Source: Pseudoxanthomonas suwonensis 11-1
GTDB lineage: Bacteria > Pseudomonadota > Gammaproteobacteria > Xanthomonadales > Xanthomonadaceae
NCBI RefSeq assembly: GCF_000185965.1
Contig: NC_014924.1
Coordinates: forward strand, 3,162,001 to 3,226,000
Reading direction: 5' to 3'
Length of the DNA stretch: 64,000 bases
The position numbers were made by a program, and so were the translations under genes. The first letter of the stretch is position 1, and each line of letters opens with the position of its first letter. Below the pieces are notes generated by a model. The model ran no database searches. It was not told the origin of the DNA and worked only from the letters and a program-made list of their open reading frames with translations. This document shows positions 975 through 40,169 of this stretch, piece after piece.

Positions 975-1092
975 CGTACTCCCTCCCGTTACAGATGGTC
1001 CGGTGCGCGGCAATGGCGAGGGCCGCTGTACACCGGTGTCTTCAAATTTGGTATGTGGTTTATGCAAGCGGGGATATCGGTATTGGAATTGA

Positions 1093-1106
1093 TGATACCG
1101 GTCCCA
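1093..1106. promoter_or_regulatory. LacI-type operator candidate (9/10)
   Basis: TGATACCGGTCCCA fits TGNTANCGNTANCA at nine of ten fixed positions (C instead of A at position 11). Its centre lies 21 bp, two helical turns, from a weaker site at 1072-1085, and CGGTAT/ATACCG arms connect the two. The central CCGG is like E. coli GntR/IdnR operators. Confidence 0.45.
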
Positions 1107-1119
1107 CGAGCGGCGGCGA

Positions 1120-1133
1120 TGGTAGCGCTCTCA
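1120..1133. promoter_or_regulatory. xyl-box-like LacI operator candidate (9/10)
   Basis: TGGTAGCGCTCTCA shares its first ten bases with the xyl-box I recall from Xanthomonas campestris xylan genes (TGGTAGCGCTAACA). It fits TGNTANCGNTANCA at nine of ten fixed positions and lies on the receptor side of the divergent promoter region. Confidence 0.5.
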
Positions 1134-1295
1134 CAAAACGCAGTGCAAGGAACAGCACAACATCCACCTTCGATGTTGCGCCGCACGATGAAAACCGCTG
1201 TTTTCACGGGCGAAATCGCGATTCCGGAATGACAGCGCTGAGATGGCCACTTTCACGGAAGATGACGGGTGGTGGCAGATTTCGCGCTGTGTTAA

Positions 1296-1309
1296 TGATA
1301 GCGATATCA
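1296..1309. promoter_or_regulatory. LacI-family operator, full consensus
   Basis: TGATAGCGATATCA is an inverted repeat with central CG and half-site TGATA. It is almost identical to the minus-strand TGATATCGATAGCA at the start of the GH67 operon. It lies about 94 bp upstream of the exuT start, placed to repress the plus-strand operon. Confidence 0.65.
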
Positions 1310-1402
1310 AAGCAGGTGGCTTCGGGAAGGGGTATTTATGCTGCACCGCAGTAAATCCGTATTTATGTTGCGCCGCGTCATTCCGGCGCGCGGAGGTAAC
1401 CG

Positions 1403-2698
1403 GTGACCGCGTCGACCCCGGCGGTCGCCGCCCGGGTCGGGAAGTTCCGCTGGCGCGTGTGCGCCATGCTGCTGGCCGCGACCACGATCAACTACATCGA
1501 CCGCCAGGTGCTCGGCGTGCTCGCGCCGTTCCTGCAGGACGAGATCGGCTGGAGCGAGATCGAGTACGGCTACATCGTCATGGCGTTCCAGGCGGCGTAC
1601 GCGATCGGCCTGCTGTGCGCCGGCGCGGTGATCGACCGCTTCGGCACCCGTATCGGCTATGCGCTGGCGATAAGCATCTGGTCACTGGCGGCAATGGGCC
1701 ATGCGCTGGCAGCGAGCGTGCTGGGCTTCATCCTCGCCCGCTTCGCGCTGGGCCTGGGCGAGGCGGGCAACTTCCCGGCCGCGGTCAAGACCGTCGCCGA
1801 ATGGTTCCCAAAGCGCGAACGTGCGCTGGCGGTGGGCATCTTCAATGCGGGCTCCAACATCGGCGCGATCGTCGCGCCGCTGATGGTGCCGATCGTGGCC
1901 GCAGCCTGGGGCTGGCAGGCGGCGTTCCTGTGCACGGGTGCCCTCAGCGCGATCTGGCTGGTGGTGTGGTTGACCCGCTACCGCCCGCCGGAGCAGCAGC
2001 CGCGCGTTTCGGCCGAAGAACTGGCGCACATCCGCTCCGATCCGCCGGAGAGCACGGTCAAGGTGCCGTGGCTGCAGCTGCTGCAGCACCGCCAGGCGTG
2101 GTCGTTCGTGGCCGCCAAGTTCATCACCGATCCGGTGTGGTGGCTGTTCCTGTTCTGGCTCGGCAAGTTCCTCGCCTCCGAGTACGGATTGTCGCTGGCG
2201 ACGATCGGCCCGCCGATGATCGTGGTCTACCTGATGGCCGACGTGGGCAGCATCGCCGGCGGCTGGCTGGCCGGGCGCTTCATGCGCCTGGGCTGGAGCC
2301 TCAACCGCGCACGCAAGGGCGCGATGCTGGTCTGCGCGCTGTGCGTGGCACCGGTGGTGCTGGTGACGCAGGTCGACAACCTTTGGCTGGCGGTGGGCCT
2401 GATCGGCCTGGCCATGGCCGGCCACCAGGGCTGGTCGGCCAACGTGTTCACCCTGCCGTCGGACATGTTCCCGCGCCAGGCCGTGGCTTCGGTGGTCGGC
2501 ATCGGCGGCTTCGCCGGCTCGGTCGGCGGCATGGCCATGTCCTTCTTCACCGGCGCGCAGCTGCAGTCCACCGGCAGCTACAGCACCATCTTCCTGATCG
2601 CCGGCTCGGCCTATGTCTTCGCCCTGGTCGTGGTGCACCTGCTGGCGCCCCGGCTGGAGCCGGCCCGTTTCGAACTCCCGCGCGCGAATGGCGCCTGA
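1403..2698 (+). CDS. exuT: Hexuronate-type MFS transporter (ACS family)
   Basis: A 431-residue inner-membrane major facilitator protein of the anion:cation symporter type, with about 12 hydrophobic segments. The TTINYIDRQVLG motif in the first membrane helix and DRFGTR in the first loop are typical of ExuT/GudP transporters of hexuronates and aldarates. Start GTG at 1403 follows GGAGG with 6 nt spacing. It is the first gene of a plus-strand run with GH115, UxaC, GH2 and GH10, so glucuronate or 4-O-methylglucuronate released from xylan is the expected substrate. Specificity is inferred from family and neighbours; another organic anion is possible. Confidence 0.85.
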   Translation: MTASTPAVAARVGKFRWRVCAMLLAATTINYIDRQVLGVLAPFLQDEIGWSEIEYGYIVMAFQAAYAIGLLCAGAVIDRFGTRIGYALAISIWSLAAMGHALAASVLGFILARFALGLGEAGNFPAAVKTVAEWFPKRERALAVGIFNAGSNIGAIVAPLMVPIVAAAWGWQAAFLCTGALSAIWLVVWLTRYRPPEQQPRVSAEELAHIRSDPPESTVKVPWLQLLQHRQAWSFVAAKFITDPVWWLFLFWLGKFLASEYGLSLATIGPPMIVVYLMADVGSIAGGWLAGRFMRLGWSLNRARKGAMLVCALCVAPVVLVTQVDNLWLAVGLIGLAMAGHQGWSANVFTLPSDMFPRQAVASVVGIGGFAGSVGGMAMSFFTGAQLQSTGSYSTIFLIAGSAYVFALVVVHLLAPRLEPARFELPRANGA

Positions 2699-2770
2699 GC
2701 CATCGCGCGCAATGCTGACGCCACCTGCCGGCCTTCCGGCACGTGGCTGCCACCTAGAGGGATCCAACTG

Positions 2771-5626
2771 ATGAACAAGCGTCACCTCGTCCTGCTGGGC
2801 CTGGCCTTGCTGTTGCCGGGAACGGCACTGGCCGCTCAGGACTGCCGCAGCCCGGCCGTGGTCTGCGAGACACGCACCTCCGGCAGCCTGGCCTTGATCG
2901 AACGCGGCACGCCGTTGCCGGTGCTGGTGGACGAGGGCGATTTCCAGGCGGTGAAGCTCGCGGCCGAAGCCTTGCGTGGCGACCTGGCAGCGGTCTCCGG
3001 CAAGGAGCAAGCCAAAGGCGCGCAGAAGCTGGCGATCATCGCCGGTACCCTGGGCCACAGCCCGCGCATCGATCGCATCGTCCGTGATCACCGGATTGAT
3101 ACCGGTGGCGTAGAGGGCGTGTGGGAGGCCTACCTGCTGCAGGTCGTCGACAGGCCCGAGCCCGGCATCGACCGCGCCCTGCTGGTGGTAGGCGCCGACC
3201 GTCGCGGCACGGCCTACGGCCTGTACGAGCTTTCGCGCCGCGTCGGCGTCTCGCCGTGGACCTGGTGGGCGGACGTGCCGCCACCGAAGCGCAGCAGCCT
3301 GCATATCGCCCCGGGCCGCTTCGTCGACGCGCCGAAGGTGCGCTACCGCGGCATCTTCATCAACGACGAGGATCCCGCGCTGGGTGGCTGGAGCAAGGCC
3401 AGCTTTGGCGGCACCAACCACCGTTTCTACGAGCGCGTGTTCCAGCTGATCATGCGCCACAAGGCCAACTACCTGTGGCCGGCGATGTGGCTGCCGCGCG
3501 CGTTCTACGACGACGACCCGAAGAATGCCGAAGTCGCCGACGCCTGGGGCGTGGTGATCGGCACCAGCCACCACGAGCCGATGATGCGCGCCCACGATGA
3601 GTGGTCGCGCTACGGCAAGGGTCCGTGGGACTACCGCCGCAACGCGAAGGTGCTGCAGGAGTTCTGGCGTGGTGGCATGGAGCGGCTGCAGGGCCGCGAG
3701 GCCGTGGTCACCCTGGGCATGCGCGGCGACGGCGACGAGCCGATGAGCGAGGAGACCGCCACCGCCCTGCTGGAGCAGATCGTCGCGGACCAGCGGCGGA
3801 TCATCGGCGAGGTCACCGGCAAGCCGGTGGAACAGACCCCGCAGGTGTGGGCGCTCTACAAGGAAGTTCAGGACTACTACGACAAGGGCATGCGCGTGCC
3901 CGACGACGTCACCCTGCTGTTCGCCGACGACAACTGGGGCAACATCCGCCGCCTGCCCGATCCGGCCGAGAAGCGTCCTGGCGGCTACGGCGTGTACTAC
4001 CACTTCGACTACGTCGGCGGTCCGCGCAACTACAAGTGGCTCAACACCACCCAGGTCGAGCGCGCCTGGGAGCAGATGCGCCTGGCCTGGGCGCACGGCG
4101 TGGAGCGGCTGTGGGTGGTCAACGTCGGCGACATCAAGCCGCAGGAACTGCCGATCAGTGCCTTCCTCGACCAGGCCTGGGATCCGGATGCCGCCGACCT
4201 GGAGTGGATCAAGGCCTATCCGGCGCGCTGGGCGGCCGAGCAGTTCGGCCCGGCGCACGCCCAGGCCATCGGTGACATCGTGACCGGCTATACCCGGCTC
4301 AACGCGCGCCGCAAGCCGGAGCTGATCGACGCCGAGACCTGGAGCCTGGTCCACGACAACGAGGCCGGGCGCGTGCTGGGCGAGTGGGACGCACTGGTGG
4401 CGAAGATGCAGGCGCTGGCGCCGAAGATCCCGGCCAGCCACCGCGATGCCTGGTACCAGCTGGTCGAATACCCGGTGCTGGCCAGTGCCAACCTCAACCA
4501 CCTGCACGTGGCCGTGGCCCGCAACCGCCTGTACGCGGCGCAGGGCCGGGCCTCGACCAATGCCTGGGCGGCGAAGGCGCGCGAGCTGTTCGGCCGCGAT
4601 GCCGAGCTGCAGCGCGTGTACGAGCAGGAGATCGCCGGCGGCAAGTGGATCCACATGATGAGCCAGCCGCGCATCGGCTATACCCACTGGCAGTCGCCGT
4701 CGCGCAACGTGCTGCCGGCGCTGGCGAGCGTCGACGCACCCGAGAAGGGCGCCACCGGCGTGGCGATCGAAGGCGATCCCGCCGGCTGGCCCGTGCGCCT
4801 GCGCGCGCCGCGCCTGCCGGAACTGGACCCGGTGGCCGCGCCGACCCGCGAGGTCGTCGTGTTCAACCGCGGCCAGGCGCCGATTCCGTTCACCGCCACC
4901 AGCCGCGCGTCGTGGCTGAAGGTCTCGCCGGCTTCCGGCGAGGTCACCGATGAGCAGCCGCTGAAGCTGGAGATCGACTGGGATGCGCTGCCGGAAGGTC
5001 GGCACGAGGGCGTCATCTACATCCGCGGCCAGGACTGGACCGAGGTCTACGTGACGGTGCCGGTGCACAAGCCGCCAATGCATCGCGGTGCGCGCGGCTT
5101 CGTCGAGGGCAATGGCGTGGTCGCCATCGAGGCCGAGCATTACAGCCGCGCGGTGCCGCCCCCGGGTGGCCAGTGGCAGGTGATTCCCAACCTGGGCCGC
5201 ACCCTGTCCGCGGTCACGGCATGGCCGGCAACCGGCGAGCCGCTGTCGCCCGGCGGCGATGGCGCGCGCCTGGAATACCCGGTGGTGATGCACGAGGACG
5301 GCGAGATCGAACTGCGGGTACTGGTCTCCCCCACCCTCGACCTGCGCCACCGCGGCGGCCTGCGCTACGCCGTCTCGGTCAACGACGAGCCGCCGCGGCT
5401 GGTGAACATCCGCCTGGATCCCTCGCCCGGCGACCCCGACTTCACCGCCTGGGAAGCGGCGGTGACCGACAACGTGCATGCGGGCAGCTCGCGCCACCGC
5501 GTCCGCGCCGGCGCCAACACCGTCAAACTGTGGCTGGTCGACCCGGCCCTGGTGTTCCAGCGCATCGAACTCGTGCGCCGTCCCACTCCCACCACCCTCG
5601 GCCCCGGGGAAAGCGTGCGCCGCTGA
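2771..5626 (+). CDS. GH115 xylan alpha-1,2-glucuronidase
   Basis: A 951-residue exported glycoside hydrolase of family 115, which removes (4-O-methyl)glucuronic acid from internal as well as terminal xylose residues of xylan. A signal peptide ends near residue 22 (GTALAAQD). Family signatures include INDEDPALGGW near residue 197, ANYLWPAMW near 234 and LFADDNWGN near 383, followed by C-terminal beta domains (roughly from residue 690). Length matches GH115 proteins. It sits 72 nt downstream of exuT and upstream of uxaC, so the sugar it frees is carried in and isomerised by the neighbours. SD GAGGG precedes ATG. Confidence 0.92.
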   Translation: MNKRHLVLLGLALLLPGTALAAQDCRSPAVVCETRTSGSLALIERGTPLPVLVDEGDFQAVKLAAEALRGDLAAVSGKEQAKGAQKLAIIAGTLGHSPRIDRIVRDHRIDTGGVEGVWEAYLLQVVDRPEPGIDRALLVVGADRRGTAYGLYELSRRVGVSPWTWWADVPPPKRSSLHIAPGRFVDAPKVRYRGIFINDEDPALGGWSKASFGGTNHRFYERVFQLIMRHKANYLWPAMWLPRAFYDDDPKNAEVADAWGVVIGTSHHEPMMRAHDEWSRYGKGPWDYRRNAKVLQEFWRGGMERLQGREAVVTLGMRGDGDEPMSEETATALLEQIVADQRRIIGEVTGKPVEQTPQVWALYKEVQDYYDKGMRVPDDVTLLFADDNWGNIRRLPDPAEKRPGGYGVYYHFDYVGGPRNYKWLNTTQVERAWEQMRLAWAHGVERLWVVNVGDIKPQELPISAFLDQAWDPDAADLEWIKAYPARWAAEQFGPAHAQAIGDIVTGYTRLNARRKPELIDAETWSLVHDNEAGRVLGEWDALVAKMQALAPKIPASHRDAWYQLVEYPVLASANLNHLHVAVARNRLYAAQGRASTNAWAAKARELFGRDAELQRVYEQEIAGGKWIHMMSQPRIGYTHWQSPSRNVLPALASVDAPEKGATGVAIEGDPAGWPVRLRAPRLPELDPVAAPTREVVVFNRGQAPIPFTATSRASWLKVSPASGEVTDEQPLKLEIDWDALPEGRHEGVIYIRGQDWTEVYVTVPVHKPPMHRGARGFVEGNGVVAIEAEHYSRAVPPPGGQWQVIPNLGRTLSAVTAWPATGEPLSPGGDGARLEYPVVMHEDGEIELRVLVSPTLDLRHRGGLRYAVSVNDEPPRLVNIRLDPSPGDPDFTAWEAAVTDNVHAGSSRHRVRAGANTVKLWLVDPALVFQRIELVRRPTPTTLGPGESVRR

Positions 5627-5672
5627 CGGCACGCGCGACCCCGACCGGACGCAACCACACATGGAAGACCCG

Positions 5673-7097
5673 ATGAACGCCACCGGCCGCCCGCTGCACC
5701 TGCACCAGGACCGCCTGTTCCCGTCCGATCCGACCCAGCGCGCGATCGCCCGCCGCCTGTACGCGCAGGTGGCGGAGCTGCCGATCGTCAGTCCGCACGG
5801 GCACACCGATCCGTCCTGGTTCGCCGGCAATGCGACGTTCGCCAATGCCACCGAGCTGCTGCTGGTGCCGGACCACTACGTGTTCCGCATGCTCTACAGC
5901 CAGGGCATCGGCCTGGATGCGCTGGGCATCCCGCATGCCGATGGCAGCCGTGCCCAGGTCGACCCACGCCACGCCTGGCGGGTGTTCGCGGAGAACTTCC
6001 ACCTGTTCCGCGGCACGCCGTCGTCGCTGTGGCTCAACCACGTGTTCCACGAGGTGTTCGGCCTGCGCGTGCGCCTGGATGCCGGTACCGCGGACCATTA
6101 CTACGACACCATCACCGAAGCCCTGCAGACCGAGGGCTTCCGCCCGCGTGCCCTGTTCGAGCGCTTCAGGATCGAGGTGATCGCCACCACCGAGGGGCCG
6201 CTGGATCCGCTGGCGCACCATCAGGCCATCCGCGACAGCGGCTGGAATGGAAAGGTCGTCACCGCCTACCGGCCCGACGAGGTGGTCGATCCGGAGCACG
6301 AGTCCTTTGCCGAGGCACTGCAGCGCTTCGGCCATGTGACCGGCGAGGACGTGCACGGCTGGGACGGCTACCTGCGCGCGCACCGCAACCGCCGCGCCTT
6401 CTTCAAGTCCATGGGCGCGACCTCCACCGACCATGGGCACGAAAGTGCGCTGACCACCAACCTGTCGCACGCCGAGGCCGGGCGCCTGTTCGCGAAGATC
6501 CTCAAGGGCGGCTTCTCGCGCGAGGAGGCGGCACTGTTCCGCGGCCAGGTGCTGACCGAGATGGCGGGCATGAGCCTGGACGATGGCCTGGTGATGCAGC
6601 TGCATCCGGGCTGCTATCGCAACCACAACCCGCTGCTGTTCGCCCGCCACGGCCGCAATGTCGGCGCCGACCTCCCGCTGGCCACCGATTACGTGCACGC
6701 GCTCAAGCCGCTGCTGGACCGCTTCGGCAACGAGCCGGACTTCCGCCTGATCCTGTTCACCCTGGACGAGTCCACCTACTCGCGCGAGCTGGGCCCGATG
6801 GCCGGGCACTATCCCTGCCTGTACCTGGGCCCGGCCTGGTGGTTCCACGATTCGCCGGAAGGCATGTGGCGCTTCCGCGAGCAGACCCTCAGCACCGCCG
6901 GCTTCTACAACACCGTCGGCTTCAACGACGACACCCGCGCCTTCCTCTCGATTCCCGCGCGCCACGACGTGGCCCGGCGCATCGACTGCGCGGTGCTGGC
7001 GAAGCTGGTCGCCGAGCACCGCATGGACGAGGACGAGGCCGCCGAGGTCGCGGTGGACCTGGCCTACACCCTGCCCAAGCGCGCCTACAAGCTGTAA
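5673..7097 (+). CDS. uxaC: Glucuronate isomerase UxaC
   Basis: A 474-residue uronate isomerase (D-glucuronate to D-fructuronate), the first cytoplasmic step of the hexuronate pathway. The SPHGHTDPSW block near residue 35 supplies the HxH metal ligands of the amidohydrolase fold, and the later FTLDEST and GFNDDTRAF blocks are typical. I chose the ATG at 5673, which has GGAAGA just upstream and gives a normal N-terminus; an in-frame ATG at 5661 is the alternative. Its product feeds UxuB and ManD, which are encoded in the opposite arm of the locus more than 15 kb away. Confidence 0.93.
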   Translation: MNATGRPLHLHQDRLFPSDPTQRAIARRLYAQVAELPIVSPHGHTDPSWFAGNATFANATELLLVPDHYVFRMLYSQGIGLDALGIPHADGSRAQVDPRHAWRVFAENFHLFRGTPSSLWLNHVFHEVFGLRVRLDAGTADHYYDTITEALQTEGFRPRALFERFRIEVIATTEGPLDPLAHHQAIRDSGWNGKVVTAYRPDEVVDPEHESFAEALQRFGHVTGEDVHGWDGYLRAHRNRRAFFKSMGATSTDHGHESALTTNLSHAEAGRLFAKILKGGFSREEAALFRGQVLTEMAGMSLDDGLVMQLHPGCYRNHNPLLFARHGRNVGADLPLATDYVHALKPLLDRFGNEPDFRLILFTLDESTYSRELGPMAGHYPCLYLGPAWWFHDSPEGMWRFREQTLSTAGFYNTVGFNDDTRAFLSIPARHDVARRIDCAVLAKLVAEHRMDEDEAAEVAVDLAYTLPKRAYKL

Positions 7098-7128: not shown

Positions 7129-9894
7129 ATGACGACCGAGTCGCCGCCTCCTGCGCGGCATCGTGCCCGCCGCTTCGCCGCGCTCCTGCTGGGCCTGGCG
7201 ACGCTGGCGTCCGGGCTGCCGGCGGCGGCGGAAGTCGCGCCGCGTGAACGCATCCGCCTGGACCAAGGCTGGCGCTTCCACCGCGGCGATCCGACCGGGG
7301 TGGACGGTCGCCTGGACTACGACGCGCGGCCTCAGGTGCAGGCAAGCGCCGACGGCAAGGATGCCGACAGCAGGCCCGACGCAGCGGTCCGGGTGCAGGC
7401 CGACCGGCCCGTGCTCAAACCCTGGATCCTGCCGACGGCCAACCGTTTCATCCGCGCTCCCGCGCAACGCCACGTGCCTCCGGCCACGCAGCCGGACGTC
7501 GGCGACATCCCGTTCCTGCGCGCCGGCTACGACGACTCGGCCTGGCCGCAGGTCACCCTGCCGCACGACTGGGCCATCGCCGGCCCGTTCCTCGCCGACG
7601 GCCCCTACGGCGGCATGGGCCGCCTGACCAGCTGGGGCATTGGCTGGTACCGGCGGCAGCTCGACATCCCCGCCGACCAGCGCGGCCGTCGCATCTTCCT
7701 GAACCTGGACGGCGCCATGTCCTACGCCACGGTCTGGCTCAACGGCCGGCTGGTTGGCGGCTGGCCCTATGGCTACAACAGCTGGCGCGTGGACCTCACG
7801 CCCTACGTGGAGTTCGGCGGCAACAACACCTTGGCAATCCGTCTGGACAACCCGCCCGACTCGGCGCGCTGGTATCCCGGCGGCGGACTTTACCGCGACG
7901 TCTGGCTGGTCAGCACCGCGCCGGTGCATGTCGCACAGTGGGGCACCACGGTTACCACGCCGCAGGTGTCCGCCGAGGCCGCCGACGTCCACCTGCGGGT
8001 GGAAGTGGACAACACCACCGACCGCATGGTGAAGGTGGCGGTGGAGAGCGAGTTCTACGAGCTCGATGCGGACGGACGGCGCGGCGCCGCTCCGGTGGCA
8101 CGCATCCCGCGCATCGGCTTCCAGATCGTGCCGGGGGGCAGCAGCGCTGCCGCGTCCGGCGCCACGATCGCGCGGCCGCGGCTATGGGGGCCGCCGCCGA
8201 ACCAGCAGCCGCACCGCTACGTCGCCGTGACCACACTGCGCCAGGACGGACAGGTGGTCGACCGCTACGAGACGCGCTTCGGCATCCGCCAGGTCGGATG
8301 GGACCCGGACCGCGGTGTGGTGGTCAACGGCGAGCACATCGTGCTCAAGGGCGTGAACCAGCACCACGACCTCGGCGCGCTGGGCGTGGCCTTCAATGTC
8401 CGCGCGGCCCGGCGCCAGCTGGAGATCCTGCGCGGCATGGGCGCCAACGCCATCCGCCTGGCGCACAACCCGCCCGATCCGCAGCTGCTGGAACTCACCG
8501 ACGCAATGGGCTTCCTGGTGATCGACGAGATCTTCGACTCCTGGGAGAAGAAGAAGACGCCGCTGGATTTCCACCTCGTGTTCCCGGAATGGCACGAGGC
8601 CGACCTGCGGGCGATGTTGCGCCGCGACCGCAACCATCCTTCCGTGATCCTGTGGAGCGTGGGCAACGAGGTCGGCGAGCAGTACGACGGCGAGGCCGGC
8701 GCGGCCATCGGCCGGCGCCTTGTGCAGATCGTGCGCGAGGAGGATCCCACCCGTCCGGCCACCGCCTCGATGAACTGGGCCAAGGCCGACATGCCGTTCC
8801 CTGCGGCGTTCGACGTCATCAACCTCAATTACCAGGGCGAGGGCATCCGCCAGGAGCCGGAGTTCGAGGGCACCGAGCGCATCCGCACGCCGCCCTCATA
8901 TCCGGCATTCCGCACCGCCTTCCCGGACAAGGTGGTTTTCGGCAGCGAGACCGCCTCCGCGCTGAGCACGCGCGGCACCTACCTGTTCCCGGTAAGCGCG
9001 GCGCAGAGCGCGCCGGTGCGCGACCACAACGGCGGCGACTCCCGGCGCCGCCTGGTCAGCGCGTACGAGCTGCATGCGGTGGATTTCGGCTCCAGCGCCG
9101 ACAAGGTGTTCGCCACCCTCGACCGCCATCCCTATGTGGCCGGCGAGTTCGTGTGGAACGGCTTCGACTACCTGGGCGAGCCCACCCCATACTACGAGTC
9201 GCGCAGCTCCTACAGCGGCATCATCGACCTGGCCGGATTTCCCAAGGACCGCTACTGGCTGTACCAGTCGCGCTGGCGCCCGGAACTGCCGATGGCGCAC
9301 ATCCTGCCGCACTGGAACTGGCCCGGCCGCGAGGGCCAGGTCACGCCGGTGCACGTGTTCACCTCCGGCGACGAGGCCGAACTGTTCGTCAACGGCATTT
9401 CCCAGGGCCGGAAGAAGAAGGGTGCCTACGAGTACCGCCTGCGCTGGGACGAGGTCGTCTACCAGCCGGGAACGCTGCGCGTCCAGGCCTGGCGCGATGG
9501 CAGGCCGTGGGCATCGGCCACGGTGGAGACCACCGGCGCACCCGCACGCCTGGCGCTGGAGGCCGACCGCTCGCGAGTCGGCAACGACGGCCGCGACCTG
9601 TCCTTCATCACCCTGCGCGTGCTCGATGCCAAGGGGCGCGCAGTGCCCGATGCCGATACCCGCGTGCGATTCCGCATCGACGGCGCCGCGGAACTGGTGG
9701 CCACCGACAACGGCGATCCGCGCGACCTTACCGCTTTTCCTTCGGCCGAACGCAATGCCTTCGGCGGCCTGGCCCTGGCCATCGTGCGCGGCCTGCCCGG
9801 CCGCAGCGGGACTGCGCGCGTGAGCGTGGAGGCCGACGGCCTGGAGGGCGCCGTGCTGGAGCTGCGCGTGGCTCCGGCCGTCGATGCACACTGA
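7129..9894 (+). CDS. Exported GH2 family glycosidase (beta-galactosidase-like)
   Basis: A 921-residue secreted GH2 enzyme with a signal peptide ending at about residue 34. Order: sugar-binding jelly roll with the LPHDW motif (residues ~35-260), Ig-like domain, TIM barrel with general acid Glu514 in GNEVGEQ and nucleophile Glu607 in GSETAS, then DUF4982-like and further C-terminal beta domains. Between the usual N-terminal GWRFHRGD and the YDDSAWPQVTLPHDW strand there is an unusual insert of about 75 residues. In a xylan locus the likely job is trimming a side chain such as galactose from xylan or xyloglucan; substrate is inference. SD GGAG, 31 nt after uxaC. Confidence 0.88.
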   Translation: MTTESPPPARHRARRFAALLLGLATLASGLPAAAEVAPRERIRLDQGWRFHRGDPTGVDGRLDYDARPQVQASADGKDADSRPDAAVRVQADRPVLKPWILPTANRFIRAPAQRHVPPATQPDVGDIPFLRAGYDDSAWPQVTLPHDWAIAGPFLADGPYGGMGRLTSWGIGWYRRQLDIPADQRGRRIFLNLDGAMSYATVWLNGRLVGGWPYGYNSWRVDLTPYVEFGGNNTLAIRLDNPPDSARWYPGGGLYRDVWLVSTAPVHVAQWGTTVTTPQVSAEAADVHLRVEVDNTTDRMVKVAVESEFYELDADGRRGAAPVARIPRIGFQIVPGGSSAAASGATIARPRLWGPPPNQQPHRYVAVTTLRQDGQVVDRYETRFGIRQVGWDPDRGVVVNGEHIVLKGVNQHHDLGALGVAFNVRAARRQLEILRGMGANAIRLAHNPPDPQLLELTDAMGFLVIDEIFDSWEKKKTPLDFHLVFPEWHEADLRAMLRRDRNHPSVILWSVGNEVGEQYDGEAGAAIGRRLVQIVREEDPTRPATASMNWAKADMPFPAAFDVINLNYQGEGIRQEPEFEGTERIRTPPSYPAFRTAFPDKVVFGSETASALSTRGTYLFPVSAAQSAPVRDHNGGDSRRRLVSAYELHAVDFGSSADKVFATLDRHPYVAGEFVWNGFDYLGEPTPYYESRSSYSGIIDLAGFPKDRYWLYQSRWRPELPMAHILPHWNWPGREGQVTPVHVFTSGDEAELFVNGISQGRKKKGAYEYRLRWDEVVYQPGTLRVQAWRDGRPWASATVETTGAPARLALEADRSRVGNDGRDLSFITLRVLDAKGRAVPDADTRVRFRIDGAAELVATDNGDPRDLTAFPSAERNAFGGLALAIVRGLPGRSGTARVSVEADGLEGAVLELRVAPAVDAH

Positions 9895-9969: not shown

Positions 9970-11112
9970 ATGATCCGTCCCCGCACCGCCCTGCTCGCCG
10001 CGCTGGCCCTGGCCTGCGGCAGCGCGCTCGCCGCCCCGAAGACGCTCAAGGACGCCTACCGCGACGACTTCCTGCTGGGAACCGCGGTCAACGACGCCAT
10101 CGTCACTGGCGAGGACGCGGCGCAGCAGGCGCTGGCGGTGCGGCACTTCAACGCGATCACCCTGGAGAACTCGATGAAGGTCGAGGTCCTCCATCCCGAA
10201 CCCGGCAAGTGGGACTTCGAACGCGCCGATGCCTTCGTCGAGTTCGGCAGGAAGCACGGCATGTTCCTGGTCGGCCACACCCTGGTCTGGCACAACCAGA
10301 CCCCGGCCTGGTTCTTCGAGGACGCCGGCGGCAAGCCGGCTGGAACCGAGGTGATGCGCGAGCGCCTGCGCCAGTACATCCACACCGTGGCCGGGCGCTA
10401 TGCCGGCAAGGTGCAGGCCTGGGACGTGGTCAACGAGCAGATCGGCGAGGATGGCCAGTACCGTGACACCACCTGGGTGCGCGCCTACGGCGGGGACGGT
10501 GATGCGCTGATGCGCGACGCCTTCCGCTTCGCCGCCGAGGCCGCGCCGGGTACGGCGCTTTACTACAACGACTTCAATGCCTGGCGCCCGGAGAAGGTCG
10601 CCGGCATCGTGCGCATGGTCGGGATGCTCAAGGCCAGCGGCATCCGCATCGACGGGGTCGGCATCCAGGGCCACTGGGGCCTCAACTATCCCGCGCTGGC
10701 CGATATCGAGGCGGCGATCGACGCCTACCACGCCGCCGGGGTCGAGGTGATGGTCACCGAGCTGGACGTGGACGTGCTGCCGCTGACGAAGGAAGGCCAG
10801 ATCATCGGCCAGGGCATGCTGCATCCGCAGTTCCAGCTGCCGGAGTTCACGCGCTTCCTCGATCCGTACCGCGACGGCCTGCCCGGCGAGGTGCAGCAGC
10901 AACTCGCCGCGCGCTACGCCGAGCTGTTCGCGCTGTTCCACCGCAAGCGCGACAAGCTCTCGCGGGTATCGGTGTGGGGCGTGGCCGACGACATGTCGTG
11001 GAAGAACGGCTATCCGATCCCCGACCGCACCAACTATCCACTGCTGTTCGACCGCGCGCGCCAGCCCAAGCCCGCGCTCGATGCGGTCCTCAAGGTGCCG
11101 CAGGGCCGGTAA
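9970..11112 (+). CDS. GH10 endo-1,4-beta-xylanase
   Basis: A 380-residue exported family 10 xylanase that cuts the xylan backbone. The signal peptide ends at about residue 22 (GSALAAP). The barrel carries HTLVWHNQ (103-110), acid/base Glu156 in WDVVNEQ and nucleophile Glu264 in VTELDVDV. It has only the catalytic domain, no carbohydrate-binding module. SD GGAGG precedes ATG. It is the last gene of the plus-strand arm. Its 3' end overlaps the end of a convergent small gene by 23 bp. Confidence 0.95.
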   Translation: MIRPRTALLAALALACGSALAAPKTLKDAYRDDFLLGTAVNDAIVTGEDAAQQALAVRHFNAITLENSMKVEVLHPEPGKWDFERADAFVEFGRKHGMFLVGHTLVWHNQTPAWFFEDAGGKPAGTEVMRERLRQYIHTVAGRYAGKVQAWDVVNEQIGEDGQYRDTTWVRAYGGDGDALMRDAFRFAAEAAPGTALYYNDFNAWRPEKVAGIVRMVGMLKASGIRIDGVGIQGHWGLNYPALADIEAAIDAYHAAGVEVMVTELDVDVLPLTKEGQIIGQGMLHPQFQLPEFTRFLDPYRDGLPGEVQQQLAARYAELFALFHRKRDKLSRVSVWGVADDMSWKNGYPIPDRTNYPLLFDRARQPKPALDAVLKVPQGR

Positions 11113-32180: not shown

Positions 32181-34378
32181 TTGCCGTCTCCGGGTGCGAA
32201 CGGGAACTGCAGGGACTTGTAGTACTCCACGTCATGCGGGGGCTCGGCTTCGCCGGCCGGCAGCGGACGCCTGGAGAAGGTCTGGAAGTAGGCCACGCTG
32301 GCATCGCGCCACCACTGCGCCTCCTTCTCCTGGATGCCGAGGAACACCGCGACCTGGTGGTGGCGCTCCTGGTCGACCTTGCCTTCCAGCGTGGACCAGG
32401 TGCGGCGCATGCCGCGCACGTAATCCACGCCGCGGCCGTAGCGGCTGACCAGCTCGTCCCACAGGCTGCGGCCGGAGGCCATGCGGTGGTCCCACGGCAC
32501 GTGGTGGAACCACAGCAGGAAGTCTTCCGGCACGGTGTCGATGCTGCCGAACTGCTCCGCCACCGGCGGCGCGTACTGGGCCACGGCATTGCTGCCGGTG
32601 GCGCTGCGGTCGAAGCCGATGCCGCGCGCGTCGGCGCGGTGGTAGTAGACCGAGGTCCAGTCCGCGCGCGGACCGCCCTCGACCCACGGACCCGGGCCGT
32701 AATGGTGGCCACGGCCCATCAGGTGGTGCAGGCCCAGCGGAGTCATGTAGTCGACCACCGCCTGGTGCGAGCCCATCATCATCGACACCACCGGCTCGAC
32801 CACGGCCGGGTCGGTGGAGAAGGTCATGCGCGCCCAGTCGCGGGCGATCTCCTCGGCGCTGGCGTGCGGATCCCAGGCCATGCGGCCGTACACGTACCAG
32901 TTGGCCTGGTCGAAGTGGGAGCCGCTCCAGTTGCGGTCCACGCCGATGTTGGCCACGCCGGCCATGCCGGTCAGCGCGTGGCTTTCCAGCGAGCCGTCGA
33001 TGATCTTCGCCACCGTGGAGCCGGGACCGCGCGCATGGGTGTCGGCGCGCAGCACTTCCTCGTACATCGGGCCCAGGTACACCAGGTGGGTGGCGAAACC
33101 CAGGTACTCCTTGGTGATCTGGAACTCCATCATCAGCGGCGTCCTCGGCATCGCGCCGAACAGCGGGTGGAACGGCTCGCGCGGCTGGAAGTCGATCGCG
33201 CCGTTCTTGACCTGCACCAGCACGTTGTCGGCGAACACGCCGTCATGCGGGACGAACTCGGTGTAGGCCTGCTTGGCGCGGTCGTCCGGCTCCTCGTGCG
33301 AGTACACGAAAGCGCGCCACATCACGATGCCACCGTGCGGCGCCAGCGCCTCGGCCAGCATGTTGGCGCCGTCGGCGTGGTTGCGGCCGTAGTCCTGCGG
33401 ACCGGGCTGGCCCTCGGAATTGGCCTTGACCAGGAAGCCGCCGAAATCAGGGATGGTGCGGTAGATCTCGTCGGCCTTGTCCTTCCACCACTGGCGCACC
33501 GCCGGGTCCAGCGGATCGGCGGTCGCAAGGCCACCGATCTCGATCGGTGCGCTGAAGCGGGCACTGAGGTAGACCTTGATGCCGTACGCGCGGAACACCG
33601 AGGCCAGCGCCGCCGTCTTTTCCAGGTACAGCGGTGTCAAAGCCTGGGCGCTTGTATTGACGTTGTTGAGCACGGTGCCGTTGATGCCGATCGAGGCATT
33701 GGCGCGGGCGTAGTCGGTGTAGCGCGGATCCAGCCAGTCCGGCAGCCTGTGCCAGTCCCAGATCGATTCCCCGGCATAGCCACGCTCTACGTAGCGGTCC
33801 AGGTTGTCCCAGTGGTTGAGCACGCGCAGCTTGACCCTGGGCGACTCGCGCACGTCCACGCCGGCCAGCGGCTCTCCGGACTGCACCAGCCGCAGCAGGT
33901 GGAAGCTGCCGTACAGCGCGCCGACGTCGCTGTTGGCGGCGACCACGGTGGCCTTGCGCCCGTCGATGCGGGCCTCGCGGATCAGGTAGCCCTCCTCGCC
34001 CAGGCCTTCGAGGTCGCCCTGCAGCGAGGCCAGCTGCGGCACCGAGGCGGGGGTACCGACCACCAGCGCGCCATTGCGGCGTACAGCCGCCGCCTGCGCC
34101 GGCTCACGCCCCAGCAGGCCGCCAAGGCCACGCACCAGTTCGTCGCGCGCCGCCTGCTGGGTCGGAGTCTGCACCGGGGCCACCAGCTCGGCGCCGAGCT
34201 CCCGGTACTGCCTGGCCTGGGCCTCCGGCAGCGGCTTGTAGCGCAGCCACAGGTCGTAGCCGTCCTCGGCCAGCGCCGGCAGCGCGAAGGTCCAGGCCAG
34301 CAGCATGAGCAGCAGGGCCGGGAGGCCACGGGAGGCGGCAGGATGTCGTGGGGGGGCGGTTCGTGCTATCGATATCAC
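32177..34378 (-). CDS. aguA: GH67 alpha-glucuronidase
   Basis: A 733-residue family 67 enzyme releasing (4-O-methyl)glucuronate from the non-reducing end of aldouronic acids. Conserved blocks: [10 protein letters not shown] with acid Glu322, [13 protein letters not shown] and [12 protein letters not shown] with the paired catalytic carboxylates. No ATG gives a good N-terminus, so I chose GTG 34378: AAGGTG lies 7 nt upstream and a long n-region plus hydrophobic core ([10 protein letters not shown]) ends at LALPALA. First gene of a ten-gene minus-strand operon. A signal peptide suggests periplasmic action. An operator-like palindrome covers its start codon. Confidence 0.9.
34364..34377. promoter_or_regulatory. 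LacI-family operator, full consensus, at GH67 start
   Basis: TGCTATCGATATCA (minus strand TGATATCGATAGCA) extends to a 16-bp inverted repeat, 34363-34378, with a single mismatched pair and central CG. It is nearly the same as the site in front of exuT. It covers the GTG start of the GH67 gene and faces the divergent lacI gene, a good place for repression of the operon and for autoregulation. Confidence 0.7.
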
Positions 34379-34475: not shown

Positions 34476-35537
34476 TTGGCCACTACCAGCAAGTCGGCGC
34501 GCCGCAAGGGGCGTGCAGTCACCATCCATGAAGTGGCCGCCGCGGCCGAAGTCTCGCCGATGACGGTGTCGCGGGTGATCAACGGCAACGCCAACGTGCG
34601 TCCGGCCACCCGCGAGCAGGTCATGCGCGCGGTGCGCGAACTCGGCTACACGCCCAACCTGGCGGCACGCTCGCTGGCCGCCGCGCAGGGCACGCGGATA
34701 GCGCTGATCTACACCAACCCGTCGGGTGCCTACCTCAGCGAGCTGCTGGTCGGCGCCCTGCGGGGCGCGGCGCGCTGCGCGGTGCAGCTGGTCGTCGACA
34801 GCTGGGACGGACTCAGCGCCGAGGCCGAGCGCAGCGCCGCCCGCGCCCTCGGGCGCAGCGTCGCCGGCGTGCTGCTGCCGCCGCCGCTGTGCGAATCCAA
34901 GGGCGTGGTGGCCGAACTGGTGGCCGCCGACGTGCCGGTGGTCGCACTGGCCTCGGCCCGCTTCGGCGACGACGTCTCGCACGTGCGCATCGACGATTTC
35001 CGCGCCGGCCGCGAGATCACCGAGTACCTCCTGTCGCTGGGCCACACCCGGATCGGCTTCATCAAGGGCCACCCGAACCAGACCGCCAGCACGCGGCGAT
35101 TCGAGGGTTTCCAGGCGGCGCTGGCCACGGCCGGCATCAGCCTGGACAGCGGCCTGGTCCAGCAGGGCTACTTCACCTACCGCTCCGGACTGGAGGCGGC
35201 GGAGAAGCTGCTCGCGCGCAGGAAGCCGCCGACCGCGATCTTCGCCAGCAACGACGACATGGCCGCGGCCGTGGTCTCGGTCGCGCACCGGCGCGGCCTG
35301 GAAGTGCCGCGCGACCTCTCGGTGGTCGGCTACGACGACACCTCCGCGGCCACCACCGTGTGGCCCGAGCTGAGCACGGTGCGGCAGCCGATCGCGTCCA
35401 TGGCCGATTCGGCCATGGACATCCTGGTGCGCGCGATCAACCGCAAGGAGAAGGACGTGCACATGGTCGTCGACCACGTCGTGGCCCACGAACTGGTGAG
35501 GCGGGACTCGGTGGCCCCGCCGGCCAGCCAGGACTGA
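34476..35537 (+). CDS. LacI-family transcriptional regulator (XylR/UxuR-like)
   Basis: A 353-residue LacI-type repressor. The N-terminal helix-turn-helix is [20 protein letters not shown] (about 16-35), with hinge helix near PNLAARSLA, then a sugar-binding domain. Start is probably TTG 34476, following GGGAG/AAGGA, since no ATG or GTG gives a sensible N-terminus. Divergent from the ten-gene GH67 operon and convergent with xylE. LacI proteins bind palindromes with central CG, and such sites lie in front of three transcription units here, making it the likely local regulator. Effector (xylose, xylobiose or a uronate) cannot be read from sequence. Confidence 0.88.
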
Positions 35538-35562
35538 GACGGGGCCGCCACCCATCCCCGTC
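35538..35562. terminator. Convergent stem-loop between lacI and xylE
   Basis: GACGGGG (35538-35544) pairs with CCCCGTC (35556-35562) around an 11-nt loop, right between the two convergent stop codons. Only short pyrimidine runs follow (ATCCTTCCATCT), so it is a weak bidirectional terminator candidate. Confidence 0.45.
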
Positions 35563-37003
35563 ATCCTTCCATCTGCTCCAGCTCGCGCCCGCGGGTTTCG
35601 CGGACGAAGCGCAGCACGAAGAACACCGACAGCACCGCCGCCGCCGCGTACAGGCCGTAGGCCGCCGCCAGGCCGATGCCGGCCAGCAGCATCGGGAAGG
35701 TCCAGGTGATGACGAAGTTCGCCACCCACTGCGCCAGGCCCGCCACCGCCAGGCCCGAGCCGCGGATCTGGTTGGGGAACATCTCGCCCAGCATCACCCA
35801 CATCACCGGGCCCCACGAGGCGTTGAAGAACACCACGTAGGCGTTGGCCGCCACCAGCGCCACCAGGCCCATCTGCCCCGGCAGCTGCAGCTTGCCGGCC
35901 GCGTCCAGGGTGCCGGTGGAGAACGCCCAGGCCACGATGCCCAGGGTCACCGCCATGCCCGCCGAACCCACCCACAGCAGCGGCTTGCGACCGACCTTGT
36001 CCACCAGCACGATCGTCACCAGGCAGGCACCGATGCTCAGCGCGCCGGACAGCACGTTGATCAGCAGCGCGTCGTTCTCCGAGAAGCCCACCGCCTGCCA
36101 CAGCACCGCGCCGTAGTAGAACACCACGTTGATGCCCACCAGCTGCTGGAACGTGGCCAGGCCGATACCCACCCACACGATCGGCCGCACCTTGCCGGTG
36201 GCCTTGCTGATCAGGTCCGACAGGCGCGGACGGTGGTGGTCGGCCGCCAGCGAGGCGTCGATCTCGGCCAGCTTGCGCGCCCCGCCCTGCTCGCCGTACA
36301 GCCGCGCCAGCACCTTGGCCGCCTTGTCCTTCAGGCCACGGGCCACCAGGTAGCGCGGGCTCTCGGGGATGAAGAACAGCGCGCCCAGGAACAGGAAGGC
36401 CGGGGCCAGCTCGGCCCAGAACATCCAGCGCCAGGCCTCGTAGTCCCACCACAGCACCGCGGTCGAGGCGCCGGCATGGCCGGCCAGCCACCAGTTGCTC
36501 AGGAACGAGAAGAACAGGCCGGAGATGATCGCGATCTGCTGCACCGTGGCCAGGCGGCCGCGGTAGCGCGCCGGGGCGACCTCGGCGATGTAGGCCGGCG
36601 ACATCACGCTGGCCGCACCTACCGCCAGGCCACCGAGCACGCGGTAGACCACGAACTCGGCCGAGGAGGTGGCGATGCCCGAGCCCCAGGCCGAGACGAT
36701 GAAGAACACCGCCGCCCACAGCTGCATCGTGCGGCGGCCGTAGCGGTCGGCCAGGGTGCCGGCGAACCAGGCGCCGACCGCGCAGCCCAGCAGCATCGAG
36801 GCGACGTTGAAACCGGTCACCGCCGCGTCGGACTTGAACGCCGCGGTCAGGCCGTCGACCGTACCGTTGATCACGCCGCTGTCGTAGCCGAACAGGAAGC
36901 CACCGATGGTGGCCACCAGGCTGATCAGGATGATGAAACGCGTGTTCTCGCCGCCGGCTTCGATGTTCGTCGTGCCGGTCTGCGTGTTTTCAATAACCGC
37001 CAT
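35561..37003 (-). CDS. xylE: D-xylose:H+ symporter XylE-like (sugar porter MFS)
   Basis: A 480-residue sugar-porter family transporter with 12 expected membrane segments. Signatures include GYDSGVINGT in TM1, ADRYGRR, PESPRYLVARG after TM6, QQLVGINVVFYYG in TM7 and VDKVGRKPLL. In E. coli XylE the matching QQxxGIN block binds xylose. Last gene of xylB-xylA-xylE. GAGGGAGGGG precedes ATG. The 96-nt gap to xylA contains two GC-rich stem-loops. Specificity rests on the gene order. Confidence 0.9.
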   Translation of the reverse strand: MAVIENTQTGTTNIEAGGENTRFIILISLVATIGGFLFGYDSGVINGTVDGLTAAFKSDAAVTGFNVASMLLGCAVGAWFAGTLADRYGRRTMQLWAAVFFIVSAWGSGIATSSAEFVVYRVLGGLAVGAASVMSPAYIAEVAPARYRGRLATVQQIAIISGLFFSFLSNWWLAGHAGASTAVLWWDYEAWRWMFWAELAPAFLFLGALFFIPESPRYLVARGLKDKAAKVLARLYGEQGGARKLAEIDASLAADHHRPRLSDLISKATGKVRPIVWVGIGLATFQQLVGINVVFYYGAVLWQAVGFSENDALLINVLSGALSIGACLVTIVLVDKVGRKPLLWVGSAGMAVTLGIVAWAFSTGTLDAAGKLQLPGQMGLVALVAANAYVVFFNASWGPVMWVMLGEMFPNQIRGSGLAVAGLAQWVANFVITWTFPMLLAGIGLAAAYGLYAAAAVLSVFFVLRFVRETRGRELEQMEG

Positions 37004-37029
37004 CGGGGGCCCCTCCCTCGAGAATCCGC

Positions 37030-37058
37030 GCGCCCGCCGTGATGCGGCTGGCGGGCGC
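37030..37058 (-). repeat. Intercistronic stem-loop, xylA/xylE gap (1)
   Basis: GCGCCCGCC (37030-37038) and GGCGGGCGC (37050-37058) form a 9-bp stem with an 11-nt loop between xylA and xylE. There is no U-run. Confidence 0.55.
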
Positions 37059-37067
37059 GGCGCGGTC

Positions 37068-37089
37068 GCCGGGGCGCGGGCGCCCCGGC
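37068..37089 (-). repeat. Intercistronic stem-loop, xylA/xylE gap (2)
   Basis: A 22-nt inverted repeat, GCCGGGGCG - CGGG - CGCCCCGGC, lying 10 nt after the xylA stop. With the previous hairpin it forms a tandem pair like the one in the GH3/uxuB gap. Confidence 0.6.
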
Positions 37090-37099
37090 TCGTTTCGCG

Positions 37100-38434
37100 T
37101 CAGCGACGCAGCAGGTACTGGTTCAGCAGGTTCTCGTAACGCTCCTGCTTGCCGCTGGTCTGCTTCGGCTCGCCGATCTTGGCGGCCAGCGAGGCCAGGT
37201 CGGCCAGGCCCAGCTTGCCTTCCTCGAAGGCCTTGCCGTCGCCGGAGTCGAAGCTGGCGTAACGCTCCTTGCGCCAGGTCTCCCACGGCGAGTCATTGAG
37301 CAGGGCGTGGGCGACTTCCAGGCCCTTGGCGAACGCGTCCATGCCACCGATGTGGGCGATGAACAGGTCCTCCATGTCGGTCGACTCGCGACGCGGCTTG
37401 GCGTCGAAGTTCAGGCCGCCGACCAGGCCGCCCTGGCGCAGCACCACCATCATGGCGCCGACGGTGTCGTACAGGTCGGTCGGGAACTGGTCGGTATCCC
37501 AGCCGTTCTGCGCGTTGCCGCGGTTGGCGTCGATGCTGCCCAGCAGGCCGTGGTCCGAAGCGACCTGCAGGTCGTGCTCGAAGGTGTGGCCGGACAGGGT
37601 GGCGTGGTTGGCCTCGATGTTCAGCGAGAAGTCCTTCTCCAGGCCGTGCTCCTTCAGGAAGCCGGCGACGGTGGCGCTGTCGAAATCGTACTGGTGCTTC
37701 ATCGGCTCCATCGGCTTGGGCTCGATGAAGAACTGGCCCTTGAAGCCGATGCTGCGGCCGTAGTCGCGGGCAGCGGTCAGGAAGCGGGCGAAGTGCGCCA
37801 GCTCGCGCTTCATGTTGGTGTTGTGCAGGGTGGCGTAGCCCTCGCGGCCGCCCCAGAACACGTAGTGCTCGCCGTCCAGCTCGACCACGGCGTCCAGCAC
37901 GGCCTTGACCTGCACCGCGGCGCGCGCGACGACGTTGAAATCCGGGTTGGTGGACGCGCCGTTCATGTAGCGCGGGTGCGAGAACAGGTTCGCGGTGCCC
38001 CACAGCAGCTTCATGCCGGTGGCGTTCTGGCGCTCCTTGGCCAGGCCGACGAGGTGCTTGAGGTTCTTCTGGTAGGTGTCGATGTCGTCGGCGTCCGGCG
38101 CCAGGTCGACGTCGTGGAAGCACCAGTAAGGCACGCCCAGCTTGGTGAAGAACTCGAACGCGGCGTCGACCTTCGCCTCGGCGGTGGCCATCGCGTTGCC
38201 CTTCTCCCACGGGAAGGCGCGGGTGCCCGGTCCGAACGGGTCGGCGCCGGCGTTGCAGAAGGTGTGCCAGTAGCAGACCGCGAAGCGCAGGTGGTCGCGC
38301 ATGGTCTTGCCGCCGATCACCTTGTTGGCGTCGTAGACCTTGAACGCCAGCGGGTTGTCAGAATCCGGACCTTCGTAGGGGATCGCGCCGATGCCGGGGA
38401 AGTATTCGGTGGCGCCGATGAAAGGCTTGCTCAT
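37100..38434 (-). CDS. xylA: Xylose isomerase
   Basis: A 444-residue class II xylose isomerase (D-xylose to D-xylulose). Active-site blocks: [10 protein letters not shown] (catalytic His/Asp), [18 protein letters not shown] (metal Glu), [18 protein letters not shown] and GSIDANRG. Start ATG 38434 gives the usual short N-terminus with [12 protein letters not shown]. Second gene of xylBAE, 40 nt after xylB. Together with XylB it channels xylose to the pentose phosphate pathway, in parallel to the oxidative branch encoded upstream. Confidence 0.96.
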
Positions 38435-38474
38435 TTTCGGGGTTCCGTTTGGGAGTTCGTGCAGCTGGGATGCG

Positions 38475-39965
38475 TCAGGCGTACAGCGGCCGGATCGCGT
38501 CGAGGTGGGAAAGGAAGCGGGCGTACTGGGCCGCGTACGCGGCCGTTGCCTCGGCGTGCGGATGCGCCGACAGGCGCGGCTCCAGGCGTACGTGCGCGGC
38601 CGCCAGCGCGGCCAGGTCGGCATTGCCGCCCTGGGCACGGGTGGTGGCCCACAGGGCCTGCAGGGCGGCGCCGAAGGCAGCGCCCTCGGCCTGCTCGGGC
38701 ACGTCCACCGGCAGGCCGAATACGTCGGCGACCATCTGTCGCCATACCGCGCTGTGGCTGCCACCGCCGGTCAGGCGGATGGCCTCGAAGCGCATGCCGG
38801 CGTCGACGAAGGCGTCGTAGCCGTTCTTGAGGCTGTACACCGCGCCTTCCATCGCCGCGCGATAGAGGTTGGCCACGGTGAAGTTGGTCGCGGTCATGCC
38901 GAACAGGCTGCCGCGGCCGTTGGGCAGGTTCGGGGTGCGCTCGCCATTGAGGAACGGCAGCATCAGCAGGCCCTCGGCGCCCGGGCGGGTGCCGGCCAGC
39001 AGGGCGTCGCCCTCCTTGGTCGAGAAGCTGCACAGCTTGCCCACCGCCTCGGTGGCGACGGTGCAGTTCATGGTGCAGATCAGCGGCAGCCAGCCGCCGG
39101 TGGAGTCGCAGAACGCGGCCCAGCGGCCGGCGTCATCGACCATGGCGCGGTCCGAGTACGCGAACAGCGTGCCGGAGGTGCCCAGGCTCATGCTCAGCAC
39201 GCCCTGGGTCACGTTGCCGGTGCCGATGGCGGCCATCATGTTGTCGCCACCGCCGGCCGAGACGCGCACGTTGCGCGGCAGGCCCAGGGCATCGGCGATG
39301 TGCGCGGCGATCGGGAAGGTGGCATCGGCCTCGACCAGCGGCGGCAGCAGCGCGCCCAGGTCGCGGTCCGGATCGGTGGCGCGCAGCATCTCCTCCGACC
39401 AGTGGCGGTTGCGCACGTCCAGCCAGCCGGTGCCGGAGGCGTCGCCGCACTCCATCCAGCGTTCGCCGGTGAGCCAGAAGTTGACGTAGTCGTGCGGCAG
39501 CATGATCGAGGCCAGCTGCGCGTATGCCTGCGAGCGGTGGATACGGGTCCACGGCAGCTTGGAGGCGGTGTAGCCGACCAGGATCGGGTTGCCGGCCAGT
39601 TCGATGCTGCGCGCGGCGCCGCCGACGGCGTCCATGATCAGGTCGCACTCGGCCGCGGTACTGGTGTCGCACCACAGCTTGGCCGGGGCCAGCACGTTGC
39701 CGTCGCGGTCCAGCGGCACGAAGCCGTGCTGCTGGCCGGACACGCCGATGGCGACCACGCGCTCGCGCAGGGCCGGATCCAGCTGGGCGAAGCAGCTGCG
39801 GATCGCCTCGATCCACCACTCGGCGCGCTGTTCGCGGCTGCCGTCGTCACCGGCGGCCAGCTCCAGGGCGTGGCCGCTGGTGGCCGCGACCTGGCGCGCG
39901 TCCGGGTCGTAGGCGACCAGCTTGACGCTCTGGGTGCCTACATCCAGGCCGACGTACAGGCTCAT
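38475..39965 (-). CDS. xylB: Xylulokinase
   Basis: A 496-residue FGGY kinase phosphorylating D-xylulose. N-terminal [10 protein letters not shown] phosphate loop, [11 protein letters not shown] and the late [13 protein letters not shown] block are typical; [11 protein letters not shown] marks the centre. Start ATG 39965. First gene of the xylBAE unit. The 361-bp upstream gap contains an operator-like site matching those of the two xylan arms plus two other palindromes. Confidence 0.94.
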
Positions 39966-40035
39966 GCGCGCACCCCGTGCGCGGACGGGCAGCCCAGGGG
40001 CCGCGGGTTGGAACGTATTGCCGGGGCAGTGGTCA

Positions 40036-40047
40036 TGGAGCGCTCCA
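40036..40047. promoter_or_regulatory. Palindrome TGGAGCGCTCCA upstream of xylB
   Basis: A perfect 12-bp palindrome 71 bp upstream of the xylB start. It shares the AGCGCT core with Xanthomonas LacI-family boxes (CelR type TGGGAGCGCTCCCA, xyl-box), but the flanks are offset by one base, so the protein that binds it may be different. Confidence 0.4.
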
Positions 40048-40085
40048 GTGCGCGAAAACGTCGCCAAGGTCCCGCCAGCAAAGGC

Positions 40086-40102
40086 TTGTTGCAGCGCAAC
40101 AA
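40086..40102. promoter_or_regulatory. Inverted repeat TTGTTGC-AGC-GCAACAA
   Basis: Perfect 7-bp arms with a 3-bp centre, 121-137 bp upstream of xylB and flanked by two AAGGCTT-like repeats. Its position suggests a regulator site for xylB or for the divergent gene. Confidence 0.4.
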
Positions 40103-40155
40103 AGGCTTCGGCCACGACTTGGCCCGGTCGGGTGCGAAGCCCCGGCCGGGCATCA

Positions 40156-40169
40156 AGTTAGCGGTATCA
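40156..40169 (-). promoter_or_regulatory. LacI-type operator candidate upstream of xylB (9/10)
   Basis: Minus-strand TGATACCGCTAACT matches TGNTANCGNTANCA at nine of ten fixed positions and shares GCTAAC with the Xanthomonas xyl-box as I recall it. It extends the putative regulon to xylBAE. Confidence 0.5.

Follow-up and report, generated by a model that had tools for sequence, protein, structure and literature searches.

A conserved palindrome as the probable operator of a XylR-type LacI repressor at a glucuronoxylan locus of Pseudoxanthomonas suwonensis 11-1

We analyzed positions 3162001-3226000 of the Pseudoxanthomonas suwonensis 11-1 genome (3,419,049 bases, one contig), a stretch of 64,000 nucleotides hereafter called the window, whose gene set, as annotated with Pfam and NCBIfam, is a glucuronoxylan locus. 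A 14-bp palindrome, TGNTANCGNTANCA, recurs in it, and very probably serves as operator for the LacI-family repressor whose gene starts at 34476. This protein, of the Xanthomonas XylR type, would control four units at the locus and be released by xylose or xylo-oligosaccharide. The conservation of the sites in relatives, the presence of an exact xyl-box at xylB in 10 of 19 rows from the genus, and the grouping of the LacI protein with Xanthomonas proteins that adjoin xylA together point to a XylR regulon of the known kind. Such a XylR/xyl-box regulon was reportedly described in Xanthomonas by Dejean 2013; novelty here lies in the host organism, in the receptor unit, in how GH67 and lacI are wired, and in a reach that likely includes transaldolase.

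Scoring matches to the pattern as perfect or with at most one mismatch, we found two perfect and four one-mismatch matches in the window (Table 1), against a mean of 0.34 and a maximum of two in 100 dinucleotide shuffles. An earlier reading of these letters without database searches (the sequence-only reading) had expected less than one match by chance. It had also placed perfect sites at 1296-1309 and 34364-34377 and weaker ones at 1093, 1120, and 40156; a pattern search recovers the former at those coordinates, confirms each of the latter with one mismatch, and adds a sixth match at 6612-6625. The half-site TGATA does occur, on either strand, in four sites (1093, 1296, 34364, and 40156). Across the whole genome, perfect matches are in excess (seven places versus one for a reversed-pattern control) and one-mismatch matches are not; a one-mismatch match alone is thus no evidence in this genome, and the weight falls on position and conservation. 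We built a matrix out of 46 sites taken from relatives (21 distinct 14-mers) and applied it to the 35 genome places with at most one mismatch, a procedure that is partly circular because the training sites had been pre-filtered to that same limit. The window sites score 26.2 (1296), 20.6 (34364), 19.9 (1120), 19.3 (40156), 14.7 (1093), and 10.6 (6612), and 12 simulated windows contained no score of 19.3 or more, one reaching 19.1. Ten of the 35 places score at least 19, four of them inside the window, so that matches are denser near xylan genes than elsewhere, as had been predicted, though not by the matrix alone.

The sites flanking lacI and xylB were followed in two sets of relatives. The named set comprises 80 loci of relatives of the LacI protein, with the GH67-lacI gap readable in 50 and the region upstream of xylB/xylA in 42; the genus set comprises 16 GH67 rows and 19 xylB rows, one genome contributing two rows to each. 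The two sets overlap, with four LacI rows identical. Among the named relatives, the GH67-lacI gap holds a perfect site in 14 of 50 loci and a site with at most one mismatch in 33 (0.12 expected); four of these 33 sit 301-310 bases off, toward GH67, and are unlikely operators. A site with at most one mismatch precedes xylB/xylA in 40 of 42 loci (0.22 expected). The genus rows agree, with such sites in 15/16 for GH67 and 17/19 for xylB, the latter counted from the conserved ATG, since the mechanical open reading frame (ORF) starts 150 bases upstream of the real one. Moreover, in 10 of the 19 genus rows the xylB operator is exactly TGGTAGCGCTAACA, the sequence printed for X. campestris as the xyl-box that XylR binds, before xylA of the xylR locus (PMC10380989 and PMC7748154); the xyl-box named in the sequence-only reading is this printed sequence. 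The same pattern is present in alphaproteobacterial relatives of the LacI protein at 52-59% identity, and Steroidobacter and Sphingobium relatives carry it in perfect form at like places. In favor of the regulon, a genome without a regulator ortholog (G006; best match 38%) also lacks xylB, GH67, and MFS orthologs at the cut-offs used; another (G004) carries the regulator together with a perfect box at xylB, but neither GH67 nor a close MFS ortholog.

At the left end of the locus, a TonB-dependent receptor starts at about 974 on the minus strand; beyond it, left of the window, lie genes for an MFS_2 transporter and an aldose epimerase. The receptor was missing from the sequence-only reading because its ORF is cut off at the window edge and so does not show in plain ORF lists. 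The receptor diverges from the MFS-GH115 arm, so that 1093-1309 is the divergent promoter region of two units, with 1120 facing the receptor. Of the original proposal of three xylan units, the shared operator holds, as do its association with the units for xylan and xylose and its likeness to the Xanthomonas xyl-box; with the receptor counted, the locus has at least four units. We compared this region across close orthologs of the MFS gene (14 at 72% identity or more, window included) and in four distant homologs (35-38%). The 1296 site is perfect in 14/14 close orthologs; the 1120 site is found at the same position with at most one mismatch in 13/14, whereas the remaining one has its site, a perfect one, at the 1093 position; and none of the four distant homologs has either site. 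The 1093 site is weakly kept, only in the nearest relatives, with a perfect counterpart only in L127 and a decayed one in L126. When 13 upstream regions are aligned, 1296 and 1120 appear as clear conserved blocks amid diverged flanks, the block around 1296 extending to TGTGNTAATGATAGCGNTATCA. At the 1230 position, 5/13 of these upstreams carry another LacI-like palindrome, TGACAGCGCTG; the window copy (1230-1243) reads TGACAGCGCTGAGA, and fuller forms occur in four of the 12 aligned relatives. Farther left, the interval from the TonB receptor to MFS_2 also has a site, at genome position 3159818; kept in just 3/15 rows, it was dropped as an operator.

The longer block at 1296 and the extra palindrome at 1230 speak for a reading in which XylR owns only the GH67 and xylB sites, with the hexuronate arm (MFS-GH115-uxaC) under another, uronate regulator recognizing a like palindrome. 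We consider such a division of the locus improbable: the 14-mer core is the same in both arms, and the window contains no other LacI gene. Nor does the regulon fit a LacI-type uronate regulator (UxuR, ExuR, and KdgR groups; PMC4052901), whose reach would be limited to uronate genes, since sites are found also at xylB and TonB receptors.

The regulator itself has the LacI layout, with a helix-turn-helix domain (PF00356) and a periplasmic-binding-protein-like sensor (PF13377). A tree built from 103 LacI rows places it with the Xanthomonas rows, which are relatives other than the strains studied in print, in one supported group (71 rows, 100/98), outside of which lie all seven LacI paralogs of its own genome. 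In each of the three named Xanthomonas loci readable upstream of xylA, xylA has the LacI relative as its neighbor and is preceded by TGGTAGCGCTAACA in reverse complement. Of the NCBIfam models, 19 match the protein, none at its cut-off, and among solved structures (99 LacI-family sequences) the best is CcpA, with no XylR by name among the 60 matches listed. In several genomes (pairs L045/L061, L060/L072, L064/L075, and L068/L069), two XylR relatives lie ~7-15 kb apart, the second with its own TGGTAGCGCTACCA.

The sequence-only reading had called 34476 the only LacI gene in view, which is correct for the window; the genome overall has eight. Ortholog conservation, synteny, and the tree mark its product as the likely binder, yet the claim that one regulator ties the units together is not proven, because of these eight genes and the second palindrome in the same region. 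Operators could be common to at least two LacI regulators, for instance the 46%-identical paralog at genome position 3268177, so that the code would not be private to XylR. Besides the gene count and the 1230 palindrome, a perfect site before a different LacI gene in one genome (G011) speaks for such sharing. We nevertheless judge it unlikely. The 3-kb loci of all seven paralogs lack any site with at most one mismatch, and the recognition helix of the 34476 protein, SPMTVSRV, differs from those of all seven; the nearest paralog adjoins a GlcNAc 2-epimerase-family gene and is found in just 5/16 genus genomes, whereas the sites are more widely spread.

A XylR dimer would sit at 1120 and 1296 in the divergent TonB-receptor/MFS-GH115 region, at 34364 in the GH67-lacI gap, and at 40156 before xylB, keeping the TonB-receptor, MFS-GH115, GH67, and xylB units off until xylose or xylo-oligosaccharide enters the cell and releases it. 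Binding, repression, inducer, and a possible autoregulation through the GH67-lacI site are what we infer from sequence. Since the 34364 site overlaps the GTG at which GH67 likely starts, XylR may hinder start-up of that gene; lacI follows ~100 bases after this site, so that self-control is possible as well. In Xanthomonas, xylA2 is reported as the sole XylR-repressed gene of the xylR locus (PMC7748154). Consistently, none of the seven named Xanthomonas loci with a GH67-lacI gap has an operator at the usual place, and their wiring differs from that of the P. suwonensis locus.

Beyond the window, conserved sites suggest that the regulon likely extends to two remote TonB receptors and transaldolase. 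Two of the 28 genome places with exactly one mismatch precede these receptors. Before the receptor at genome position 673778, a site with at most one mismatch is found in 17/24 rows (10 perfect; 0.28 expected), and before that at 1172360 in 11/24 (5 perfect; 0.08 expected), the rows in both cases including paralogs; the own-genome matrix scores are 18.2 and 7.9, respectively. The first locus (L259) holds the receptor with Cupin_8 and Trp-halogenase genes, the second (L260) the receptor, a second receptor, a BNR-repeat protein, and a SASA esterase; both are likely further xylan uptake loci. We also surveyed perfect sites in seven genomes, six chosen from those with the locus plus P. suwonensis itself. 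These number 42 (summed control, 11), and promoters of the xylan, xylose, TonB-receptor, or transaldolase genes account for 27 of them. Four of the seven genomes have one between pyruvate kinase and transaldolase (own genome 2634029, L004), placed by the alignment of relatives, as the mechanical ORF overreaches there. Sequence like the 1230 palindrome also occurs in this region. Three of the seven have a perfect site between DAHP synthase and glnE (own genome 456036, L002; palindrome GTGATA..CG..TATCAC). One-mismatch places elsewhere in the genome include one on the glnA side at 105453 and three further ones at TonB-receptor genes or in other intergenic DNA. On a broader proposal, XylR would in this lineage have developed from a repressor of the xylan locus into a wider carbon switch. 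It would act also at the divergent transaldolase/pyruvate-kinase promoter, at both remote TonB-receptor operons, and possibly at glnE, and would share the xylan promoter with a second LacI protein that recognizes TGACAGCGCTG, Xanthomonas having dropped or never had the GH67-lacI operator; we put this forward tentatively, with the odds somewhat against it.

Several observations weigh against a XylR regulon as drawn here. The 35 genome places with at most one mismatch (28 with exactly one) fall short of the 63 of the reversed-pattern control; only four of the ten places scoring at least 19 are in the window, and four sit outside known xylan genes. No site has an E. coli-type sigma-70-like promoter beside it in our scan, and 17 of the 50 named loci lack a site with at most one mismatch in the GH67-lacI gap. 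In the perfect-site survey, the other 15 of the 42 comprise three at glnE, two at a GH9-type gene, the one before a different LacI gene, two unassigned, five within ppsR coding sequence (in five genomes), and two in coding sequence of the own genome, these last seven plainly chance. Autoregulation is countered, for Xanthomonas, by the report that xylR expression is unchanged on xylose (PMC10380989). The control counts and coding-sequence matches could be taken to mean that all matches are chance in a G+C-rich genome, a reading we give next to no credence, as the sites are conserved in place across diverged promoters. On that ground chance is rejected for 1120, 1296, 34364, and 40156; it stands for 6612, a match inside uxaC that is probably accidental.

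Table 1. Predicted operators, other pattern matches, and genes of the locus (window coordinates)
Feature	Position	Strand	Context	Evidence
Predicted operator TGATAGCGATATCA	1296..1309		upstream of MFS-GH115-uxaC-GH2-GH10 unit	perfect match
Predicted operator TGGTAGCGCTCTCA	1120..1133		TonB-receptor side of divergent region	one mismatch
Weak, doubtful site TGATACCGGTCCCA	1093..1106			one mismatch
Predicted operator	34364..34377		between GH67 and lacI, overlaps likely GH67 GTG start at 34378	perfect match
Predicted operator	40156..40169		upstream of xylB-xylA-xylE	one mismatch
Pattern match	6612..6625		within uxaC	one mismatch
TonB-dependent receptor, 5' part	1..974	-	1.96 kb continues left of window	joined ORF; Pfam TonB_dep_Rec_b-barrel on left part
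MFS transporter	1403..2698	+	hexuronate-type by context	Pfam MFS_1
GH115 alpha-glucuronidase	2771..5626	+		Pfam Glyco_hydro_115
UxaC glucuronate isomerase	5478..7097	+	mechanical start	Pfam UxaC
GH2 enzyme, GalB-like	7129..9894	+		Pfam; NCBIfam GalB 1487.9 bits, cut-off 900
GH10 xylanase	9970..11112	+	sole GH10 of genome (own-genome search)	Pfam
Rest of minus arm: SASA esterase, ManD, GH43, GH3, mannitol-dehydrogenase-type reductase, aldehyde dehydrogenase, YjhG/YagF-type D-xylonate dehydratase, GntP permease	16872..32180	-		Pfam, NCBIfam
GH67 alpha-glucuronidase	32177..34378	-		Pfam GH67 N, M, C
LacI-family regulator, XylR ortholog	34476..35537	+	353 aa from TTG 34476	Pfam LacI (PF00356), Peripla_BP_3 (PF13377); tree with named Xanthomonas LacI rows
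xylE (sugar transporter), xylA, xylB	35561..39965	-	xylB ATG at 39965	Pfam; NCBIfam TIGR02630, TIGR01312

Two enzymes of the locus deserve mention in their own right. The GH2 enzyme scores as a beta-galactosidase, GalB, yet sits in a xylan operon. The YjhG/YagF-type D-xylonate dehydratase (18270-20276; 1063.6 bits, cut-off 808.15) shares the locus with xylose isomerase and xylulokinase, bringing two xylose routes together.

The published xyl-box code holds well beyond plant-pathogenic Xanthomonas, in environmental Lysobacteraceae and in the Steroidobacter and Sphingobium relatives, and the XylR regulon is readable from sequence in genomes of biomass degraders; the GH67-lacI wiring difference and the transaldolase site are directly testable. 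The literature searches made turned up no paper on XylR in Pseudoxanthomonas, and nothing of use on XylR with transaldolase in this family or on the TGACA palindrome. Among known systems, the XylR of E. coli and the marine gammaproteobacterial XylRA (PMC12125979) share the name and xylose sensing, but have an AraC-type DNA-binding domain and AT-rich direct repeats, an unrelated DNA code. The Caulobacter crescentus XylR (PMC10380989) is likewise a LacI-type repressor released by xylose, a likeness by description only. The closest counterpart is known from Xanthomonas campestris, X. oryzae, and X. citri (PMC10380989, PMC7748154, PMC13282271). Their XylR regulon likewise combines a LacI repressor next to xylA and the same palindrome with genes for xylan enzymes and TonB receptors, and in it XylR binds its boxes without xylose and releases them with xylose or short xylo-oligosaccharides (PMC10380989). 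The P. suwonensis system resembles it in tree and synteny, in an operator fitting the xyl-box, and in having sites at xylan-enzyme, xylose, and TonB-receptor genes. It differs from Xanthomonas in that GH67 and lacI face an operator and in the addition of transaldolase sites.

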